This document shows positions 9,658 through 62,995 of a DNA stretch of 64,000 nucleotides, one piece after another. This DNA comes from Argopecten irradians (taxonomy: Eukaryota > Mollusca > Bivalvia > Pectinida > Pectinidae). Each line of letters opens with the position of its first letter. The stretch's first letter is position 1. The translations under genes were made by a program, and so were the position numbers. The notes under the pieces were generated by a model that worked only from the letters and a program-made list of their open reading frames with translations, had not been told where the DNA came from and did no database searches. The stretch spans positions 18,671,544 through 18,735,543 of the forward strand of contig NC_091144.1 in assembly GCF_041381155.1 (NCBI RefSeq). The letters are read 5' to 3'.

Positions 9658-9932
9658 AGAGAGTAACACTACATACAGCTTTGTAAAAAATTGGACAGAT
9701 AAATAACAAGTTTAATAGTCTAAATAAAGCACTGGTGACAACAAAAGATGACATCATAGCCATATTTTAAACATGAGTAATTTTAAGCTGTCCTAGCAGA
9801 AGTAAAACTTTAAATAAAGTAAACGGCTAATAGGGGAGACTTTTAATTTACGAAGGTTATAGACTACAGTTGGTGTACTTTACTTTCTTCAACAACACTT
9901 TGTATTCAAACGGAACATGATTTCTTTACAGA

Positions 9933-10515
9933 ACATCATGTACTTCAAAGGCAAACGAGATAGTATACAGCAGATAGCTCCAAACCATGGCCAGGTCCAT
10001 CTTTTAAACAAAGAGAAACTTCGAGAGATTTTTATCAATAGCAGGGAAAATAAATGTTTATTTCCCGATAAAAGACTTATGGTGGATTTAGTAACATATC
10101 GTTTATATGAATCAAATGTGGATATTCTTTATGATGAGCATTGTCATGTTCTCTACAGTAGAATTGACCAATCAGAAGGTCCAGGATTCTGCAACAGTAT
10201 TGACCAATCAGAAAGTTCTGGACTTTACAGTAGAATCGACCAATCAGAAGGCCCGACACTTCTGACTGTAGGGTATGCCTACCTTACCCCTACAGGGTAC
10301 TTCTGCAGTATAGACATATATGGAAATTTTTGATAAACATATCCAACAGCATGTACATGAGTGTAAAGAAAAAGGGATGGATATGGTGTGGTTTGGTTGT
10401 GTATACTTCAAAGATCACCACGACTAGAGTATTATCTCCAGGGTCATGAAGAAATATGGACTTGTAAAGGACGGGAGTTATTTAGTGTATTTAGCAGAGG
10501 AGACCGGAAGATTTT
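9933..10515 (+). pseudogene. Decayed coding-like remnant of unknown origin
   Basis: I do not recognise this sequence. After a TTTCTTTACAG acceptor-like site, an open frame to 10333 runs through KGKRDSIQQIAPNHGQ and ..LVTYRLYESNVDILYDEH. A shifted frame from 10319 then reads MEIFDKHIQQHVHECKEKG, ..MVWFGCVYFKDHHD, a stop, RVMKKYGLVKDGSYLVYLAE and another stop at 10513-10515. Composition looks protein-coding, but the frame change and stops argue for a dead gene or a fragment with unresolved introns. The middle (10150-10260) holds three tandem copies of GACCAATCAGAA. The adjoining minisatellite at 10590-11455 repeats a CA/GTAAGTG motif. Confidence 0.35.
10150..10262 (+). repeat. Three tandem copies of a GACCAATCAGAA-containing unit
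   Basis: AGAATTGACCAATCAGAAGG, AGTATTGACCAATCAGAAAG and AGAATCGACCAATCAGAAGG repeat at about 48-50 bp. Each has a CCAAT-box core (CCAATCA), but here they lie in coding-like sequence, so any promoter role is speculative. Confidence 0.8.
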
Positions 10516-12645: not shown

Positions 12646-15600
12646 TCAGTCTCTAGAAACTCCATTCTGGCCTCTCTCTATGATCTCGCGCAGCCTCTGC
12701 ATGCGTTTGTCGAGCTGGTTTGGGTCCCCGCCGGGGTGGGATCGGTGGTATAGCTGTATCAGTTGGCAGTACTCTGTGTAGGTAAATTGGGCTCCCTTCT
12801 CTGCTATTGATGTTAGGATATCCTACAGAAAAAAACATGATATGAAATATCAATAATATTCAAGATATGGCAATCTCAGTATGGACTTGAAAATTCTTAC
12901 TTCAACATCAGATTTGAAAAGTACTTTGCATCTTTAAAATTTATAAAATTTGACTACACGGAAGGATAATTACTTTTTCTTATTTCTTTTATTTTGTATG
13001 TCGTTTATCATATATGTATCAATTATTGACTTTGAATCTACCATGTAGATGGAAAATGTGATATCATTTCATTATAACATAATTTGTTTAAAAATCTGAT
13101 TACCAACTTTTGAAAGTTGTTTTATTTAAAATAAAAAACACATTAAAGCAAAAGACTTAAATTGCATTAAATATGTTAATAACTTACGTCTGGATTAAGG
13201 TAGAGAAGTTCGTAGTATTGGCGGGCCATATCCAAGTCAGTTTCTCGGGACATGGAAATGTTGGTCAGGTTTTGTTGGATAGCAAATAAATTCCTACACC
13301 TGATGGAAGTAAAATAGTACTTTTTTATTCAAGTAAGAAGGTTTAAGATTATTCAAATTCATTTTAAAATAAACATATTCTGTTGATGAAATACCTGAAT
13401 AGCATGTTGGCTTTTAGAATGTTGACAAGCATATTTTCTCAACCCCGTTAACAAAACCAACAAGGTCCCGGTAAAGTACAAGGTACATATTTTCCTCCAT
13501 ATCAAGCATCATATCCTATCATATAAATTTGAGGTTTCAAAAATCATTTCAGAAAGTGAGTATGTTTGACACCCTTATTTATGAACTGAGGTTGATATCA
13601 TTTGAATTAGCTGCAGACTGACAATTTGGTCCTTGTAGCTGTAGACATGTAGACAAGTGTTTAACTTCTCCATAGGAAAGCATAGCCATGGGGAATTAGT
13701 GTGATAACTGATACAACACACATAGAAACTTGGTCACAACATGTGCTTATTTGTTCATATAAAGACAATATAGTGAATTAAAAGTTAGTTTAAAAAACTC
13801 ACATCTTCTTAATGCCATTCTCGTTGATCTTAGGTAAAAACTGTATGCTGTTCATCAATATAGATGCCACCAAGAATCCAAGGCCTTCAAATATATATCT
13901 GTCAAGAAAAATCGTCATTGATAAAAGATAGCATAATTATCAATGTGGAGTATGTCAAGCATTTCAAGGTTATAATGAGTTGAATCTCACAAATTACAAC
14001 CCATGTAACTTGGTGACACTGCATTTAATTTGAAGTAAGTGACCTCTGAAAAAGTTCTTTATTTGTTCAAATGTCTTTCTAAAGCTAATGAGATAATGAT
14101 GCTTGACTGCCTTTCACAGTTCTCCTTCAATGTTGTTCCAAACTAAAAATGATTAATATGTCCAAGGCTACAGATAAATAGTCTAAGAGGCCTAATTGCA
14201 GGGGACAAAAAATTTTGACAAATAATATTATTGATAAAGAAAAATTTCATTCCCTGTTTTGATTGTCTGAAAAGCTGGATGCTTCTGCTATTCAGAGGAA
14301 GGACCAAGGGATCTAGCATTATCAACACTTTCAGACACTGGCTTAAATTTACAACTACAAGTATATCATACAAATGAGTATAATATGTACTGACTTAAAT
14401 TTATTGGGCTGTAGACTCTGTGACAACATTTCCTCCATAGCAGTTAGGTCCTTGTTCAACTTTAACACATTGGAGTCAGGGTCAAGGTCATCAATAGGTC
14501 CTGCATAGTTAGACTGAAAATAGAAAAGGTCAAGGTCATCAATAGGTCCCGCATAGTTAGACCGAAAATAGAAATGGTCAAGGTCATCAATACGTCCTGC
14601 ATAGTTAGACTGAAAATAGAAATGGTCAAGGTCATCAATAGGTCCTGCATGGTTAGACTGAAAATAGAAAAGGTCAAGGTCATCAATAGGTCCTGCATAG
14701 TTAGACTGAAAATAGAAAAGGTCAAGGTCATCAATAGGTCCCGCATAGTTAGACTGAAAATAGAAATGGACAAGGTCATCAATAGGTCCTGCATAGTTAG
14801 ACTGAAAATAGAAAAGGTCAAGGTCATCAATAGGTCCTGCATGGTTAGACTGAAAATAGAAAGGTAAAGATGTTTTCAATGAATACGTACGTTGTACCAG
14901 TATATATGTCCTAAATGTATCTTTTACACCCGGTCCACCCCAACTGCGAATGATAAATATTATGAAGTTCCTTACCGTCAATCGATTGATTTGTAACACA
15001 GCGAGAAATTCTGTACCGTGTAGCGATAAACGCTAACACTCTACCGACACAACGTGGCTATTTTTAGACTCGAGTACTGTCGCCAAATCCACAGGTAAAT
15101 CGCGGGGCGCTCTGGCTACATCAGCTATACCAAACACAATCGTAAATGTTACAAATACCGTAAAATCTTGTGTTACTTACACACCAGTGTACTTTGCACA
15201 TGTATTTTTTCTTATGGCTTTAAATACTGAAAAAAATCTACTATCGGTATATTTTGCGCATTCAAATTTTGGGGAAAACGATGTCCGGGGAACCACAAAT
15301 TCAGTGTTATAAAGGTGGTAATTTCATTGCAAAACATTCACAATAAATGCTTGACAACTTGCACAAAAAGTGTTGTATTTAGAAGAAATAACATAATATA
15401 ATTGCACTGTGCTTGTTTTCTTTTATTGGCCACCGCAACTGAAACAGTGAAATATATCTTGCAGAACATGTCAAAAACATTGGCAGTCCGCCGTATTCGA
15501 TCCGTACACATGTCAATGTCTGGAGATATTACACATGAATAGTTATCAGAACTATTTGAAAATATTATAATTTAGTTACTTTAATATTGCCACAATAAGT

Positions 15601-49200: not shown

Positions 49201-52200
49201 TCACAGTTTAGTATCCCCATCTTATACTAGATATTCATACATGTGTAGGTCTCCTTTTGAATGCAAGCTTAACAAACCCCAAGGTAACTTGAGTTGCACT
49301 CCATTCTAACTTCCAGTCATCTAATTAGTAGCTCTTCTGGAACCTATTATGATCAATAAGGTTGGAAGAGCACACATCAAGTTGGTCCTGAGGCAAACTT
49401 GAGTAAAACATTTTTAGAAATGAGATTTTCTTTTAAACCTGCCATTTACCATTGACAATGTCTCATCTTTGAGATGTATTATATACAACAGGGCTGAATG
49501 CTGCGACTGTCACGAAAACAAAATGTACATTACAGCGTAAAGAATTCTGGTTGTTACTTTGATGGCTTCATTATTTTAACAACATTAAGCAAAAACATAT
49601 AGTAACCCCTCCCCCTCCTGATTTTATCTGTTTAGATGCAACTGGTATCGGTCATTGTGACTGGTATACTGGGCAAGCTGACACATATAGGGTTGGAGCC
49701 GAAGCTGGAGCTGTTTTCAGGGGTGAAGACTTTCATGGGCATAGAAATGGTCCACAAATGGATCCCTCCAAATGTATGGATAGGACCTGCAGATCAATAT
49801 TTAATCAGTAAGAGAAACCTAACAATACTTCTTATAGCCAAGTTTGAAAGGTATTCCGCATATGATCACTTGCCCTCCATCTCATAAAATTGATCTTCAT
49901 GTAAGTTCAAATCCTATGTGAGGCAGTTGTAAGGTCTGGGTACTCTGGCTTTAAAATCCCACTTCCTTAACCTGTGCAGAGTCAGATACCAAGATGGGCC
50001 TGGCAATATAATTAATACCTATAACTATGAGAATTTTTTGATATTTGAAAATTTAACTATTGACAAATAAGGTAGCTTACTTAATAAAGGTAAATATAAT
50101 TCTTTTAAATACTTTTAAAACAATTTGACAATAAATTTTGCATAGTAAAGACATCAGATTTAGTATAATTGAAATCTGTAACCAGGTATTGGAGCTCTGT
50201 ATGCCCCGTGTATGAGAGAGGACATTGGTATCCAGATAGAATACAGTAAAGACGGATACAGTAAAACTAGCACACTCGGCTGTTGTGAAGTGGCCAGTAG
50301 AAATGTAGCAGGGACAACAACCCAATCAGAGTGTCTGAATAACACCAATGGTAAAAGCACTTTTATTACACCTGTATATAGAATGGCATTTTTACTGTAG
50401 TAAACCTTTTGCGGCTTAACCATTTAGCACTGTTTTAACCTATTGAACTGTAACTCACTCTGGTCAGCAGAAAACTATAGGATATCACACATGTCACTTC
50501 AACGAGAAGTAGTTATTTATGATACAGTATTTACCCCTCCCCTTTTTCTGAAGAAAAGTTGAAGTTGTATAAATGTCCCAATTCCATGGATTTAACAATG
50601 ACTTTTTCGCCCACAACTATTTAGTAAGCACCCCAGTTTGTTATAATTATTTATCTACCCTGGGTGCTAATTACGGTGAATACGGTAGAAGAAAAAATAT
50701 TATGGTAAACTATACATAACATACGGTAAAAGTAAAGGAATTTCTAAAGTTATATATTTATCTATTTTATTAATTTGTATTTTTTGTTTGTTTTAAAAGT
50801 ACTGTAATTTTCAAAAAGTAATTTTTGATGATGAATAACTTAAAAGCTCATCTTGATTTGAGAGTATGAAAAATATGGCACGTAAAAACTTTAAGCAAAT
50901 TGAATTCTTTAATTATTACAGTATATCTCATTTTGAAGGTCATATTCTAAACCAGATTGATTTAATGTCAATGATCCTACTACATTTATCAGGACTATAA
51001 ATGCAGAATACAAAACCTTTTAGATTTTAGACATTTATTGATTTAACTAGTGTACATTATACTTTTCCAGCAGTAGGGGTTTGGAAAGAAGGCGTTGTGT
51101 GTGGTAGTCGGCCTTCAGGACAGAATTCTGTGGCCCATGTGTTAAAACCGTGTTGTACAGGAATCAAAGGACAGTGTCAGCTACTGTCACATGAACACTG
51201 TCAGTTTCTGCAGGGCACCTTTTATGTGAATGGGCCAGAGCACTGCAGCCAGGTAACATTGCATGGTCAAGATCATCTTTGATACACCAGGGGTTACTAT
51301 CACTATCAATATGTCCTGGAATGTATCATAGCAAAACTAAAGACAGTTCAGGAGATAAACTTACCATGCAATCACAAGCCAGTATCTAGGCCTACAGAGA
51401 CTTCCTTTGAAGATTATACAGACTGAATTAATCCCAACTTCAAAGTTCAGTGTACCGCTATTCGATTCTTTTGATGGACCAAACTATCTGTCTCAATTGT
51501 TCTCACACAGAGAGCCTCCAGTTTTACTATGAGATTGTCAAAGGGTGGATGTAATGGCAGTGATGAAAGTAACCCCTGGAGTATCAAGGATGGGTTAAGA
51601 TTATATATAATAGTTATTATTACTATTAATGGTAATTGATTACTTGTTTATGTGTGTGAGAATATATAAAATAATTCTGTTCTTTTTAAGATAAATAATT
51701 TCTTCAAGGAAAACCAAAACTTTGATAACCAACACTAATCGAAACAAAGTAAGAAAAATTTAAGCTGTTGTCTCATATTCATTCAAGTAATTGTTAAGAG
51801 AAAATTGTAATGTCCGGACTTGAGTAAGTGTTCGTGTGGTAAAGAGAATGGGGTTGAAGGCAGAGTTGTTGATGATCTTTATAGACGGGTTTTACTTAAT
51901 TTCTTGAAGGTGAACTGCCTGAGTTCAGTGTGTGGGATGGGAGGCCTGGAAGCTGACACTACGCGACCTTGGCTGCCAAGGCAACCTGTTCAATGGTGGA
52001 GACTTCCCCTAGCTCTAGTCTATCACCATGGAGTGATTCACGCTGTCCTTGTGAGCCTTGCACAGCTTCTGCTTTTCCGGAAGATTGAAAGGACCCTTGG
52101 CTGGCTTCGACTCACAATTTTGTATTTTATGACAGGGTTAGGTGGATTGCTGGTATGTCTGATAGTTACAGTGTCTACAGGTTTTGTTTCCCTGGTGGGA

Positions 52201-53701
52201 AAGTCATTGCAATATGGTGAAAAATAGTATAAATACTGTTCAAGCTTAAAACAAAAATTACTATTTCATTTAGATCTTGACCTTACTGCAAGGTGGCAAT
52301 CGGGATAGCAGTTAAGATGTAACAACATATTACCACAAGCACTCCACTTCTGAGTCATAAATTCAAATCCCATGTGATGAAGTTTGCCAGACACTGACCG
52401 CTGGTCTGTGGTTTTTCTCTGGCTTTCGTTAACTATCTAAACCTACCAGTCCTTAACATCCTTAATGTTATAGGACATAGAAATAAACCATATCAAGATG
52501 GCATGGTTCATAAATATCACTTTGTTGATAAAGATTGCAGATTAATATACCAGGTCTACTGGTTATATCTGTCCTTTAAGTTATCATTACATCAAAAGCT
52601 GCCTTTTCATTGGAGGCAATTTGATGTATAATATCCAGGTAAGACAAGTATGATTGATGCTCCATTGACCAATGGTATCAGACTATCAAAATCAATTATC
52701 TTTTCTCTAAACTAAGGGACATTCCAGGTGTGATATCTCAGTTATTTTTAACCCCGATGTTCCAAAATAAATAAACTGACCACATTGACATTGGACTCTG
52801 ACTGGAGATTATATATCATAATCTTATGTGGACTTTCACATGGAGTTATCTGATCTACTGAAAGTTTACAGTGCCCTTAATAATTAACCACTGACAAAAT
52901 AAAGATAGTATAGGTGCAAATAGACTTTTCACCATGTTCACAATGATTGTCTTTCAGAATTTTTATAGAATTCATTTCTTTTTATTCAAATGATTGCAAA
53001 CTGTCTTATTTGCAACACACAAGTAAAATTTTGCTTTATAATTGACACCTTTAATAAGTTCCTCCAAGCTGAGAGGATATCAGTATCTCATCAGTCCAAC
53101 ATCATTGGAAAGCCATATTTGTGTTCTTCCATTTTCTCTTCTAAAGCCTTATTGATTACATTAAACCGACTTGAAATATAGTAACTTTGGGTGAAATAGT
53201 GCATAGAATGGCGTAAAGAATCTAATATTTCATTTCTGTGTTGTTTTTCAGACAGCTGCTATATTCAGCCCCTATATACCACATGTAGGCAGCACAGCGA
53301 CAGTGTTTGGAATGGCTGGCTTAATCACAGCGGAACTCTTACACTACTGGCACCTTGTCCGAAACCCTGCTGTGGAAATGACCAAGATTTGTGCACTTCT
53401 GATCATCTTCTTGATGTGTGGAACTCTGCCTTATGTTGATAACTACAGTATCATATCTGGGTTCCTCTTGGGCTTTTTTTGCTCCGTATTCTTCCTTCCT
53501 TTTTTGTCCTTTAAGAAACAGCAGAAGCATTGCCGCATCCTTCTTCTCTGTTTTGGTGGACCGTTCTTATTTTTGGTGTATTTTGTCTTATTCTATGTTT
53601 TCTATAAGGTGCAAACTTTTGAGGAGTGTACTGGATGTAAACTTTTTAATTGTGTACCATATACAGAAACAATGTGCGATGAGTCACTCTGGGATGATTA
53701 G
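45963..53701 (+). CDS. Inactive rhomboid (iRhom) family protein
   Basis: iRhoms are rhomboid-fold pseudoproteases of the ER and secretory pathway that bind clients such as ADAM17 or EGF-family ligands. Exons: 45963-46773 (frame interrupted, see findings), 47025-47575, 48021-48098, 48628-48736, 49039-49205, 49636-49807, 50186-50350, 51071-51252, 51910-52152, 53252-53701. From 46155 onward they join in frame (912 codons with stop). The N terminus is long, acidic and low-complexity, then a charged helical stretch. TM1 follows HEHRTIFTYILIT. The luminal iRhom homology domain shows the family pattern W(I/V)GP, PC.R.D, CC, CCxGxKG.C, HC.F..G.F and CSQVxCL..VCG. The core has HHGVIHAVLVSL, GWLRL and the C-terminal CIPFT-like CVPYTETMC. 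Rhomboid GxSG is GSTA, and the TM6 His is Ile. The exon-5 donor (GTTTAG) is weak. Upstream exons are not resolved. The family is clear; assignment to RHBDF1 or RHBDF2 is not. Confidence 0.88.
49890..49990 (+). mobile_element. Partial SINE in iRhom intron
   Basis: GTTCAAATCCTATGTGAGGC and the following TGGGTACTCTGG resemble the box-B and body regions of the tRNA-derived SINEs in this window. Only part is present. Confidence 0.4.
52285..52450 (+). mobile_element. tRNA-derived SINE in iRhom intron 9
   Basis: CGGGATAGCAGTTAAGATGT, AAATTCAAATCCCATGTGAT and GCTGGTCTGTGGTTTTTCTC match, in opposite orientation, the element at 32090-32275. Confidence 0.6.
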
Positions 53702-56690: not shown

Positions 56691-58229
56691 ACTGATTCTC
56701 CATAACATGGAAAAGGAAAGAAATCTGTCGAGCCGTTAACGAGACGTTGACCTAAGTTGAAACTGGAAGTGAGGTCATGACGGCCATATTAGATTTTTGA
56801 CCAATATAAAAATTCTTCTGTCAAACCTTCAACTCTTTTGCATACAAATATACGGTGACACGTTCATTGGCGTATCTCTTATCATTTCGGAGATTCTTTG
56901 TATGAAACTTTGGATGCAGAAGTATATAAAAAATAGAACAAAAATTATTGGTCTTTTCATTCCCCATAGGTGAAAGACTTCGCTTGGTGAGCGATGCATG
57001 CCGTCCCGGCCTCATGTTACCATTTTAATCTTCAATTGGGGTACTAGTAAAGAGTGAGACCCAGCGGAAAAATTGTTCATTTGTCAAAGTCGGACGAAGG
57101 CACACATATTGGTATGGTCACCACCGACTTGCATGGTATGTACATACCTCCCAATAGAAAAATAAAGTGTGTTTGTCATAACGAAGCAGATACATGTATA
57201 GACCCCGCTATCCTCCTGTTTTATTTTCCTTGGAGCATTTGCGAATGATTTATCAAACCCATATCCCATAACTAATATTCACAGCCTGATTGTAATCAGT
57301 TGTTCCTACCCTATATATAGTCAAGAAAAGTTTACTTTCTAATGAAGCACATTTTCTCATTAGAATTCGTTTGTATCCGGTATTATGTATATATTTGCAT
57401 AAAAAACATCAATATACTCTTAGACGGAATTGTCTCTTTCTGTAATCATAACATATACAAAGAAAAGATGTTTGACCCCGCACTATATTTCACAGGTGTG
57501 TCCGTGCAGTATACAATTATAAAAAAAAATCAATTAATTACCGCAAAGAAAGTTTTTTCTAGGCGAAAACTATTCGTGAAATCAAACAGCCCTAAAAATT
57601 AACTAGACGCGAAAACACGACATTATGTCGTCGAGAAAATAACTATAGCAAATCTATATGGGATCACAAAGGTAAAATGGACGCAATGAGGGTCTGAATA
57701 AGCATGTTGTCGTGTATCAAATGAGCACAAATACACAGATATTTGAGTAGCAGTAATACGATGTGATAATAAAAGATTAAGAAAAAAATTAAAAACTATA
57801 ATTGAAAATCCACAGAATATAGAAAGACACATTAACAGCACAGAAAGACTTTTTGACGGTATTCAGTCTAATTAAAATACAAAATATACAAGTCTTACAT
57901 TCATAACGTGGTGAATTATGTGAAAATGTTAAAAAATATATGTTTCAATACTATTGAATTTGATCGAATAGTATGTAATGAATTATATCAAACACTATTT
58001 CAATCAGATTGAGAAACCAATGTCCATTAAGTATGCTTTCATAGTTAAATGGTGAGAATATAAGACATGTAAGGTGAAATCTTTTCCGCTATAACAGTAG
58101 CTAAAGTAACATGTACTTAATTATATACATTATCAATAACAAGTTAGAATCTGGATGTGTTTGTTAAAACACGAGAATAGAACACATGTAACATAAACTT
58201 TATTACATACATCATCCACAATCTAATAA
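56691..58229. other. Gene-free stretch
   Basis: I see no exon, RNA gene or structured repeat. Short frames near 57054-57248 and 57342-57602 lack splice support and any recognisable domain. Confidence 0.5.
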
Positions 58230-59010: not shown

Positions 59011-60384
59011 AATACAGATCCTTTTAGTTAATCACCCCGTTCAATAGACCTCGTATCAAACGCAGTGATAATAAGGATCTGTATTTTGATTACATTGGCA
59101 TCATCGATAACAAGTTATAATCTCGATTTTCTAGTTAAAAAGGTGAGAATAAAAATTTATGTAACAGATATCTAATTATATGCATCATCAATAACACGTT
59201 AGAATCTGGATGTAATGCTCGATCGCTTTATCTAAGTATGGCTGAACATTGATATCCTATCTGCTCTCTTGGTCACACAGAGATAATGCATTCTCGGCAG
59301 GTCCTTGTCTAACAAGTGGGTCCTTCAATCTATTTGCATATCTACACAATTTTGTTAAGGTTTAACACTATATTGGCCTTTATATCGTGTTCGTGAATAT
59401 TTAATGTTTTATGATATATAGGTAACCCACCAAACAACCACAACAAACAAAACCAACATGAAATATACCAAATTTAAATTTTAAGATACAGTAATGTGAT
59501 CTCTACTAAACATTAAATAATTCATTAAAATTCCATCCTCCTCTCCCCCAAAAAAATGTGCATTTATATAAGTATCAATCACGAATGTTCCCCTTGAATA
59601 CCTTAATACTGAAACCTGTAAGTAGGTTAGCTTCTGTCATATATTTACATCTTATATATTCCATCTCCATTTGAGTCACTTCAGGTATATGCTTAACTCC
59701 ATTTTTTCGTGTGTTACACATTTCTATGTACATACTTCAATGAAATTGTCAAACTATGCCATGTATGCAGACATGAATCGGATCCCATTGATTGTCCCGA
59801 AAGCGAGTATATATGTATGTAGGAGTTGGAGGGGCAGTGCTTAAGTTAATTTTTAACTTTCTGGATCAAATATATGATAGTATCGTTATCAAACTCAGTA
59901 TCAGTTATAACCGATTGTAGAACAATCCAGTCCTTGCCTCATCCCACGATATATAGAGTGAGAATCTCCAATAGTTTATTCTGAATTAATCTCTCGTCGC
60001 TGCTTCTGATTCGTCGATAGGAAGAGCCACTTGAACATTGCCACCTCCTTCAATTGATATAAGCAGCATCATGCGCCACATTCTATTTATAGCACAAGCT
60101 ACAACAGTCGGGAGTCTCTTTGGCTACAGCACTGGGGAAACCCTATGTGAGATCTCGTCTACAACAATAGCTCGTGACTAACGCTGATGATATCTGAAAG
60201 CAATGGTGTACAGATGCTTTGATTTGATTGGCTAGTTGAAAGTAGAATCCAAAACAAATGCAATTCTTTAGAAAAATTTCCAAACGGTCTGTATGTGTTA
60301 CTATCTATCGTTAGGGATTTCTTCAAGGCATCGAGATGCTGCTGAAACAGAGAAACGAAAGTTATCAATTTTTGGAGTTTGTTG
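59011..60384. other. Upstream flank of the cytokine-like gene
   Basis: No gene is supported. On the minus strand a TTTCAG acceptor at about 60345 opens a 60-codon frame ending at 60159, with an AATAAA at 59975-59980. I could not connect it to other exons. Confidence 0.4.
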
Positions 60385-60393
60385 TATATAAAA
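60385..60393 (+). promoter_or_regulatory. TATA box of the cytokine-like gene
   Basis: TATATAAAA stands 85-93 bp before the start codon, which places transcription initiation near 60415-60420. A start there would exclude the out-of-frame ATG at 60402 from the mRNA. This is the clearest core promoter in the window. Confidence 0.55.
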
Positions 60394-60477
60394 CGGGAAA
60401 AATGTCTATACAGATCATTAGAATTCGAAGACTAAAGCAAGATATTAGTAAGCGAAGCAGTGCAATTAATAGACAAT

Positions 60478-62719
60478 ATGAAGCAAGGTAAGAATTAGTT
60501 AATTACAAAATGTAACTTAAGATATTTTCTAATTAACTTAATTAACCAGATCTTGAATGGTCTTCACTATATTATTATGTACATATTAGGTTTATGTAGC
60601 TAAATTATTATCAATTTTATTTTGTTATTTTATTGAAAGTTGATAAAATTAATTACAAAATATTTGTTCAAAGCTGTTTTGCAATAGAAATTTAGTGAGT
60701 TTAAACAATTTTCATTTTTATTTATTTATTTTTATGATGAGTTACACGTTAGGAAGCAATTAATCAAAGCTTTTAATTAAATAAATATTTCATAATTTCT
60801 TCTATTTAACACGTTCTTCATAAGTTACTAGCTGTTTCTTTCTAGTAAATACACGCCAACATAAGCAAAGTTTAATAATGTATTTCAAAACCATATCGAT
60901 CGGTGAAAATAACATTGACTCTAAAATGTTAAAAAGCAAAGACATTATCAGGATTATTTCTCGTCTTTTTTATAGGATTTACATTCAACCACTTCCTAGT
61001 GACCATCATTACATTGGCTTGTATCGTCCCGATGGTAACGAACGCCGCGCCCCTCCCTGGATACCAAGAGAAATGGAGAAATCCATGTGAAATACCTTCC
61101 CCAACATTTGAACCGTACGAGACGACAAACGCGCAGAAATCTTCCGTTCTCCAGGATTTACTTTTGAATCTCCAGGTGGCAGAGAATGTTATTTCCGATC
61201 TAAAAATGGAATATGTAAGTTTATCTAACTTTGTAACTATTGAATAAAAGTATTCTTTGAATGATGAGGGTGTCGAAAACTTAGTTAATCAATAAGTTCG
61301 AATTGTGAAAAAATGGAATTATGTATCGAAAATTCAATCAATCATTTTAGTTTTAATAAATTAAAGAGCTCGAAGAGCAAAAAATGCGAAACAGGAATGT
61401 TTACATATACCACGACTATTGAAAACAATTGTTATCGAATGGTGTGTGTATGTGTGTCGATAACTTATGTAATATGATTTAATTTAGTAAACAGAAACTT
61501 TGAATAGTGACAAATGAAATGCGTCAATATGCCTATGACTTTTGAAGCAGAATTGTTATTAAATGGTATGGGTGTCGATGACTAAAATACCTTTATATAG
61601 CACACTAGGTGCGGAAAGCATGGCGTAAAATTAATTATTGACCTCTTGATACAGATGTAAAAGTACATATGTAAAACTAATAGTTGTATAAATATTGATG
61701 TATCCAGGATTTAAAATGGTAGAAATTGTCTGTTTCAGAGAACACATCGTGTCGCGGGGAGAGTCTCTAACGGTTCGTGTGTCTCCAGCCTTGAAAACAA
61801 CCTCGATAATGTGTATAGGCATGTTGACGGCTTCCCAGACCTGGCGCCATACTTCTTGTCACGGAACTTCCTAGCTATTTGTGAAAACGTGAGTGTCTTC
61901 AATTTTGAATATCTTTTGATTTAGTGAACTTAATCACCAACGGGAGACTTAGGCATATGTTTTACCTTATTTAAACTGTTGGTATTTATTTTTTTCCATT
62001 TTTTTTTATTGAAGCAGCACATGCTGGTTTTATATACTCTGACAACTTTGCTAGCCAAGGATATTAAGCCGATTCTCTTCCTACTACCCTTGGCTAGCGA
62101 AGTTGATACTCTGAGGGATGACTACTTCTCCTGCCAATAATTATCGGATAGAACTATTGAAAACTAGTTTAACATCTTCTTTGTTATGATAAGAATATTC
62201 AATTTAGCGAAATTCTCTTCTCCCCACCCCTAATGTTAAGCTTTAGATGTACTCTTTCAGTCATCTTTATATTTACTTAGAATGAATGTGGCTCCATGCT
62301 CTTCCCAAGTTATGTTATAGACTAATAAAACATCATTTTACTAGATCATTTTCATGATTTTGTAGATTTCTACGACATTTTTGCACGACTACAAAATCCT
62401 TGTCCCAGTTATGATTTTCCTGGAAGAAACCATTGAAGAGGATTATCAGAACAACAACGCCACATACTTTTACCAACTGACGGAATTACACAACGCATTG
62501 AAAGGAGTGATGTGTAAATTTCATCAAATTGAACAACGTTGTGGCGCAGAGGAACAAACTCTGGACGCAACGGAACTTATTCACAATTACAAGGTATCGC
62601 CTAACTATGATCCTCGGGAGAGAGATTACCTTCTGATTAGGGATACAGGTGTTTTAGTTCGGGCGCTGCATGGTAGATATGATAACTGTCTCACGCTGTT
62701 CAGAAAAATCTCGTCATAA
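60478..62719 (+). CDS. Secreted four-helix cytokine-like protein (IL-6/LIF/CNTF-type candidate)
   Basis: Exons 60478-60487, 60976-61214, 61739-61888 and 62366-62719 have GT..AG ends and join in frame to 250 aa. Residues 1-27 (MKQGFTFNHFLVTIITLACI..) form a signal peptide with likely cleavage after TNA. The rest is predicted helical: A about 56-86, B about 126-160, C about 167-192, D about 217-247. Mature cysteines are 41, 97, 131, 183, 192 and 241, and sequons are N94, N133 and N164. Helix D (RDTGVLVRALHGRYDNCLTL) follows the K..G..VL..L..(W)....DL pattern of CNTF-family helix D. Helices B-C (DYKILVPVMIFLEE ... FHQIEQRC) resemble AYRTFHVLLARLLED ... AYQIEEL. As in LIF and IL-6 genes, exon 1 encodes only the first few signal residues and ends in phase 1. 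The gene structure is firm; the family assignment is inference from pattern. Confidence 0.7.
62035..62115. repeat. Hairpin in intron 3 of the cytokine-like gene
   Basis: TATACTCTGACAACTTTGCT then AGCCAAGG pairs with CCTTGGCT then AGCGAAGTTGATACTCTG. Confidence 0.65.
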
Positions 62720-62995
62720 TGACGTCAAATAGAAAATCTCGTCATAATGACGTCAAATAGAAAATCTCGTCATAATGACGTCAAATAGAAAATCTCGTCA
62801 TAATGACGTCAAATAGAAAATCCGTCATAATGACGTCAAATAGAAAATCTCGTCATAATGACGTCAAATAGAAAATCCGTTATAATGACATCCAATAGAA
62901 AATCTCGTCATAATGGCGCGCAATAGAAAATCTCTTAATAACGACGTGCAATAGAAAATCTCGTCATAACGGCGTACCATAGAAAATCTCGGCAT
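62705..62995 (+). repeat. 27-29-bp tandem repeat with CRE cores overlapping the stop codon
   Basis: About ten units of AGAAAATCTCGTCATAATGA then CGTCAAAT run head to tail. Six keep the palindrome TGACGTCA, the cAMP-response-element core; the last four are degenerate (for example TGGCGCGC). The first unit contains the final codons (K-I-S-S) and the TAA stop of the cytokine-like gene. Confidence 0.92.

Follow-up and report, generated by a model that had tools for sequence, protein, structure and literature searches.

A fast-evolving scallop protein family with a cytokine-like exon plan

The window analysed here is the whole stretch of 64,000 nucleotides (nt) at G000:C11:18671544-18735543 of Argopecten irradians, whose genome was searched over 846 Mb. 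It harbors a four-exon gene that is real, beyond chance, and that belongs to a new family of paralogues on the same chromosome, composed of four well-supported genes and a partial fifth. The best explanation, to which about even chances are given, is that of a fast-evolving secreted family of the long-chain four-helix cytokine type, so far encountered in scallops only.

The gene displayed four coding exons of 10, 239, 150 and 354 nt, separated by introns of phases 1, 0 and 0, with GT/AG borders throughout on the + strand and a product of 250 amino acids (aa). Its exons are given below with the predicted helices (A to D) that they encode:

60478..60487, + strand: exon 1, ATGAAGCAAG, 10 coding nt, phase 1
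60976..61214, + strand: exon 2, rest of the signal peptide, N-terminal WR.PC segment and most of helix A; end ..LKMEY, phase 0
61739..61888, + strand: exon 3, end of helix A and A-B link with LDN..HV.GFPD; end ..AICEN, phase 0
62366..62719, + strand: exon 4, most of helix B, helices C and D, and the stop codon

The N-terminus resembled a signal peptide up to residue ~27 as judged by eye, and a hydrophobic N-terminus was apparent, again by eye, in the alignments of all four complete members. From residue 28, a start chosen in the same manner, the mature chain counted 223 aa (25.8 kDa, isoelectric point 5.3). The length of 250 aa, the six mature cysteines (41, 97, 131, 183, 192 and 241) and the three sequons (94, 133 and 164) announced in a preliminary description of this DNA were all confirmed from the translation.

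Searches of a database of 5.77 billion proteins, which detect only relatives having short exact words in common with the query, retrieved the window protein and two orthologues, Pecten maximus LOC117339900 (61% identity) and Ylistrum balloti LOC132544064 (55%), and nothing beyond these three. All were annotated as uncharacterized. The six mature cysteines and sequon N133 were kept in the three scallops, and both orthologues started with MKQ. This common start, together with an identical ATGAAGCAAG exon in the paralogue PAR1, supported a first exon of 10 nt. MKQ was not the start of the public A. irradians model, which opened with MVTTDLHG from an exon at 57114:

57114..57135, + strand: alternative first coding exon MVTTDLH(G), located by translation; phase 1; used by neither orthologue

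The genome was searched with the Y. balloti protein, which matched 22 places, and then with exon 4 of PAR2, which matched six. Matches of the first query on C11, the sequence that carries the window, defined the family as the window gene, PAR1, PAR2 and PAR3. Besides PAR4 (E 8.6e-20) and PAR1 (1.4e-10), the second query recovered the window gene itself (3.7e-5); the links among members are therefore mutual. Pairwise identity among the four main genes (window gene, PAR1, PAR2 and PAR4) ranged from 19 to 39%. PAR1 (L015, near 25.45 Mb, 6.7 Mb from the window gene) displayed the complete plan with phases 1, 0 and 0 and a product of 243 aa; its 10-nt first exon was followed by exons of 227, 141 and 354 nt, the last being exactly as long as that of the window gene. 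PAR2 (L017, 13.77 Mb) and PAR4 (L025, 11.73 Mb) comprised exons 2 to 4, whose borders agreed with those of the window gene, both introns 2 and 3 being of phase 0. PAR3 (L016, 5.55 Mb) was partial and the weakest member (E 0.0027 with the Y. balloti query, absent from the PAR2 exon-4 search); it consisted of an exon 2 with the same donor, ending in LKSQY, and of an exon-4 stretch, no exon 3 being identified at the locus. No MKQ-type pattern match for exon 1 was found in the loci of PAR2, PAR3 and PAR4.

Because the splice borders were retained through this wide divergence of the paralogues, the evidence for the four-exon model is strong; borders, MKQ starts of the orthologues and the PAR1 exon all agree with the four exons and the 10-nt phase-1 first exon that had been described. 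Alignment of five sequences uncovered a common WR.PC before helix A, a tyrosine ending exon 2 (invariant in six out of six sequences once PAR4 was added), and H..G.PD in the link between helices A and B. Within the later helices, L..Y..L......LE was shared in B and MC in C, and RDY close to the beginning of D. PAR1, PAR4 and PAR2 contained six, four and two cysteines, respectively.

Several other matches were set aside. The copies on C7 (L002, 99% identical, with ~0.5 kb extra in intron 1 and a reading frame broken by differences in exons 2 and 3) and on C686 (L003, a 40 kb contig, 87% over the query, with many breaks) were excluded from the family; they look like unmerged haplotypes or decayed duplicates. 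C1229 carried a broken copy of PAR1, and a C3 match in the PAR2 exon-4 search, in which the C7 copy appeared again, reached E 5.28. Eight rows on C13 (E 0.09-0.39), with one stop each and a regular spacing, were considered repeat-like. These weak matches, at G000:C13:35233988-35235856, correspond to the part of the Y. balloti protein that spans helices B-C and have the look of a tandem repeat.

Intron 1 of the window gene was a phase-1 intron within the signal peptide. Introns 2 and 3 were both of phase 0. In the two structural models, the former interrupted helix A with 5-8 residues of its predicted length remaining, and the latter interrupted helix B 6-8 residues into its predicted length. 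A phase-1 signal-peptide intron is a family feature of long-chain class I cytokine genes. The exon lengths of IL-6 and GH1 yield phases 1-0-0-0 with breaks near the two helix sites of the scallop genes, the first exon of GH1 being 10 nt long, and in LIF and CNTF the helix-A break follows a tyrosine. The window gene and PAR1 shared phases 1-0-0, the C-D intron being absent from the scallop genes. The intron phases appear to fit the long-chain cytokine plan, and this agreement, whose chance was not computed, is the best argument for a cytokine; it points to long-chain cytokines in general and not to the gp130 group. Conserved phase-0 introns between adjacent secondary structures are reported for four-helical cytokines (PMC12327624), and cartilaginous-fish interferons and IFN-gamma, which belong to the related class II, are reported to have lost their third intron (PMC5332411).

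Two AlphaFold models displayed four long helices and both long links (A-B and C-D), at a very low pLDDT of 43-44. The predicted helices were located as follows:

61128..61762, + strand: helix A, ~residues 55-91, split by intron 2 (low-confidence AlphaFold model)
61862..62449, + strand: helix B, ~residues 125-161, split by intron 3 (low-confidence model)
62459..62536, + strand: helix C, ~residues 165-190 (low-confidence model)
62612..62713, + strand: helix D, ~residues 216-249, with the RDY of the alignment, invariant, near its start (low-confidence model)

The four-helix secreted protein of the preliminary description was partly borne out, the four long helices appearing in both models at low confidence and secretion being a judgement by eye. 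Folds were compared in four lists, of which the best 50 rows each were considered. CNTF, IL-11, CLCF1, IL-6, LIF and prolactin were prominent among the weak structural matches listed. A helical-moment test was uninformative, as a control link scored nearly as high as the best helix.

Three sets of observations bear on assignment to the cytokines. In the first place, no sequence homology of the family to any cytokine was detected. Pfam scans of one, three and five family proteins returned no cytokine family, the scan of five being run at E up to 10, with HMMER filters dropping most matches above ~0.1; the sole Pfam match was DUF6873, in one member (E 0.066, below its cut-off). Sequence searches of the PDB returned no cytokine chain; the chains that they did match were unrelated and scored weakly (best E 0.11, 0.23 and 0.042). 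Against human CNTF, LIF, IL-6, GH, CLCF1 and OSM, the scallop trio did not rise above the level of shuffled sequences (z -0.90 to 0.68), and in four out of six cases (LIF, IL-6, GH and CLCF1) it was outscored by its own reversal. The same test recovered CNTF-CLCF1 and LIF-OSM (z ~5) and missed IL-6 or GH versus CNTF or LIF; as true distant cytokine relatives also fail, it is without power at this distance. With hhalign, probabilities against cytokines were <1% for the trio and at most 4.6% for six members, in an alignment whose PAR4 row was truncated by six residues where exon 3 begins; rotated controls scored much alike, rotation being a weak control for local alignment. Secondly, introns 2 and 3 fell inside predicted helices by 5-8 residues and not cleanly between them, the helix borders being uncertain. 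This lowered confidence in a cytokine and raised that in an unrelated protein. Finally, the long-chain cytokine matches were tied in score with unrelated helical bundles.

The main rival, held at clearly below an even chance, is a secreted helical protein that is specific to the lineage and has a different function (for example reproductive, antimicrobial or carrier), its cytokine-like features being convergent. It is favored by the detection of relatives in three scallop species only, by the fast divergence of the paralogues and by the weak fold evidence, unrelated bundles scoring equally. It would have to accommodate a phase-1 signal-peptide intron and two phase-0 introns that match the cytokine plan (with the reservation on chance made above), as well as the retention of both phase-0 introns down to 19% identity.

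The preliminary description had gone further and proposed a gp130-type (IL-6/LIF/CNTF) cytokine, which would share a common ancestral gene with vertebrate LIF and CNTF. The proposal amounts to a more restricted version of the long-chain cytokine explanation preferred here. What stood was a secreted helical protein with a cytokine-type gene architecture, as indicated by conserved splicing, four predicted helices and structural neighbours; the gp130 assignment itself was not supported, and a gp130/CNTF label is premature. CNTF was the top VIA row in one fold list and, at rank 3 of another, the highest-placed cytokine, CLCF1, IL-11, IL-6 and LIF being close behind. A tyrosine precedes the phase-0 intron that falls close to where helix A ends, as it does in CNTF and LIF according to their known exon lengths. 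However, prolactin occupied Foldseek ranks 1-5 for the second model, and GH and IL-6 have one and the same intron plan, so that the plan is not specific to gp130 ligands. The kinship with CNTF that had been drawn from a QIE motif at the end of helix C and from the G..VL pattern of helix D was rejected since these motifs vary among the three scallops: P. maximus has FVE in place of QIE and A in place of the helix-D G, the corresponding residues of Y. balloti being VLE and I. In the absence of any sequence signal, and although an IL6R-like receptor is reported in molluscs (PMC13203501), the gp130 assignment seems unlikely.

A class II-type helical cytokine (interferon/IL-10-like), comparable to oyster CgIFNLP, is quite improbable: the signal-peptide coding intron is a feature of long-chain class I genes and is not known from IL-10-type genes, and no class II cytokine was present among the matches listed in the four fold lists, which does not exclude one, even though class II genes are generally of five exons and four introns, some of them showing the intron 3 loss mentioned above (PMC5332411), and a molluscan interferon-like protein with a class II-like structure has been published (PMC9756803).

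For the long-chain cytokine explanation, we infer receptor, signalling and biological role as follows. The window protein would be made with a signal peptide and then released, secretion being suggested by the appearance of its N-terminus. Its four long helices may form a disulphide-stabilised bundle of up-up-down-down topology, both topology and disulphide pairing being suggested by low-confidence models. The ligand would probably assemble receptor chains of the Domeless/IL6R type at the cell surface, and JAK kinases attached to these receptors would then activate STAT.

Parts of such a pathway were encountered in the genome. A profile search detected STAT_bind above cut-off at two places on C4, each over ~35 of 133 positions, and FERM F2, likewise above cut-off, at two C15 places whose scores were identical. 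FERM F2 is a kind of domain found in JAKs, which were tested through this domain only. The two FERM F2 frames (L026 and L027, 323 aa) lie 17 kb apart in opposite orientation, as in an inverted duplication or an assembly fold-back. The gp130-like receptor envisaged for the same genome did not emerge: the genome search with the IL6-receptor domain PF09240 gave a single, sub-threshold match, and no receptor was found. The frames around that match (L004) did not appear receptor-like by eye.

In a 2026 study (PMC13203501), IL6R, JAK and STAT are reported together in Mollusca, and IL-6-family ligands in vertebrates only. The searches of that study relied on a BLAST E no higher than 1e-5 and an identity of 30% or more, thresholds that scallop-type proteins would probably not pass. 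The scallop proteins could, short of proof, supply the signals that the animal's own cytokine pathway still lacks. More tentatively, at well below even chances, they may form a true protostome branch, in which case exon plan and fold would have been present in the mollusc-vertebrate ancestor and the proteins would be the missing ligands of the molluscan IL6R/Domeless-JAK-STAT pathway.

Two further features flank the coding sequence of the window gene:

60387..60393, + strand: TATAAAA, weak candidate core promoter, 91 bp before the MKQ ATG
62705..62995, no strand assigned: 28-bp tandem array of 10.5 copies, starting within the coding sequence

TATA-type matches near the start amounted to 10 per ~1 kb of A+T-rich DNA (both strands, overlaps counted). 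Simple patterns in 59479-60500 gave two STAT-type, one AP-1 and one ISRE-like match, which carry no chance estimate and were not used as evidence; a pattern search of the same segment found no NF-kB consensus. The first copy of the 28-bp array encodes the last residues and the stop codon of the window gene. Six copies of the array contain the palindrome TGACGTCA, which we take to be the cAMP-response consensus, and 8 more TGACGTCA sites were found elsewhere in the window. Upstream of the gene, frames at 51811-53701 matched Pfam Rhomboid and displayed GMAG at the catalytic GxSG site, presumably indicating an inactive rhomboid (iRhom). An open frame at 9863-10333 matched Pfam Hisat_C (histidine N-acetyltransferase C-terminal domain), and a minus-strand frame at 14355-15032 was built from repeated units.

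No report of a molluscan class I-type helical cytokine was present among the open-access titles listed. Earlier invertebrate claims concern helical cytokines of Drosophila (PMC2248247, PMC4172062) and, in molluscs, the interferon-like CgIFNLP of oyster (PMC9756803, PMC8218723).

The scallop family, with its cytokine-like exon plan, offers concrete ligand candidates. If they are homologous to the vertebrate proteins, long-chain cytokines would have originated before the protostome-deuterostome split. The analysis suggests that gene architecture combined with within-genome paralogues may expose cytokine candidates missed by sequence searches; as scallops are farmed, an immune or growth ligand would also be of practical use.

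Compared with known systems, the family is closest in plan to the long-chain class I cytokines (growth hormone, prolactin, IL-6, G-CSF, LIF and CNTF), with which it shares a signal-peptide-like N-terminus, a size of ~200-250 aa and, by prediction, four long helices whose A-B and C-D links are long. At the gene level, both have a first coding exon that is tiny and ends in phase 1, followed by phase-0 introns close to where helix A ends and helix B begins. It differs from them by the lack of detected sequence similarity and of a C-D intron, by its own set of cysteines and by its occurrence in a mollusc and not in a vertebrate. The gp130 family is approached through CNTF, CLCF1, IL-11, LIF and IL-6 among the best structural rows and through the tyrosine before the helix-A intron; in contrast, the motifs initially put forward vary in the orthologues, and the gp130-type receptor domain was sub-threshold in the scallop genome. 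Among invertebrate helical ligands, Drosophila Upd and a putative Drosophila helical cytokine are similar by description, Upd acting on the IL6R-like Domeless and on JAK-STAT (PMC13203501, PMC2248247). Oyster CgIFNLP is likewise molluscan, reportedly resembles helical cytokines and binds the receptor CgIFNR-3 (PMC9756803, PMC8218723), but is described as class II-like. Shrimp C-type lectin and peroxiredoxin 4, described as Domeless ligands, are comparable as alternative activators of an IL6R-like receptor, although they are not helical cytokines.
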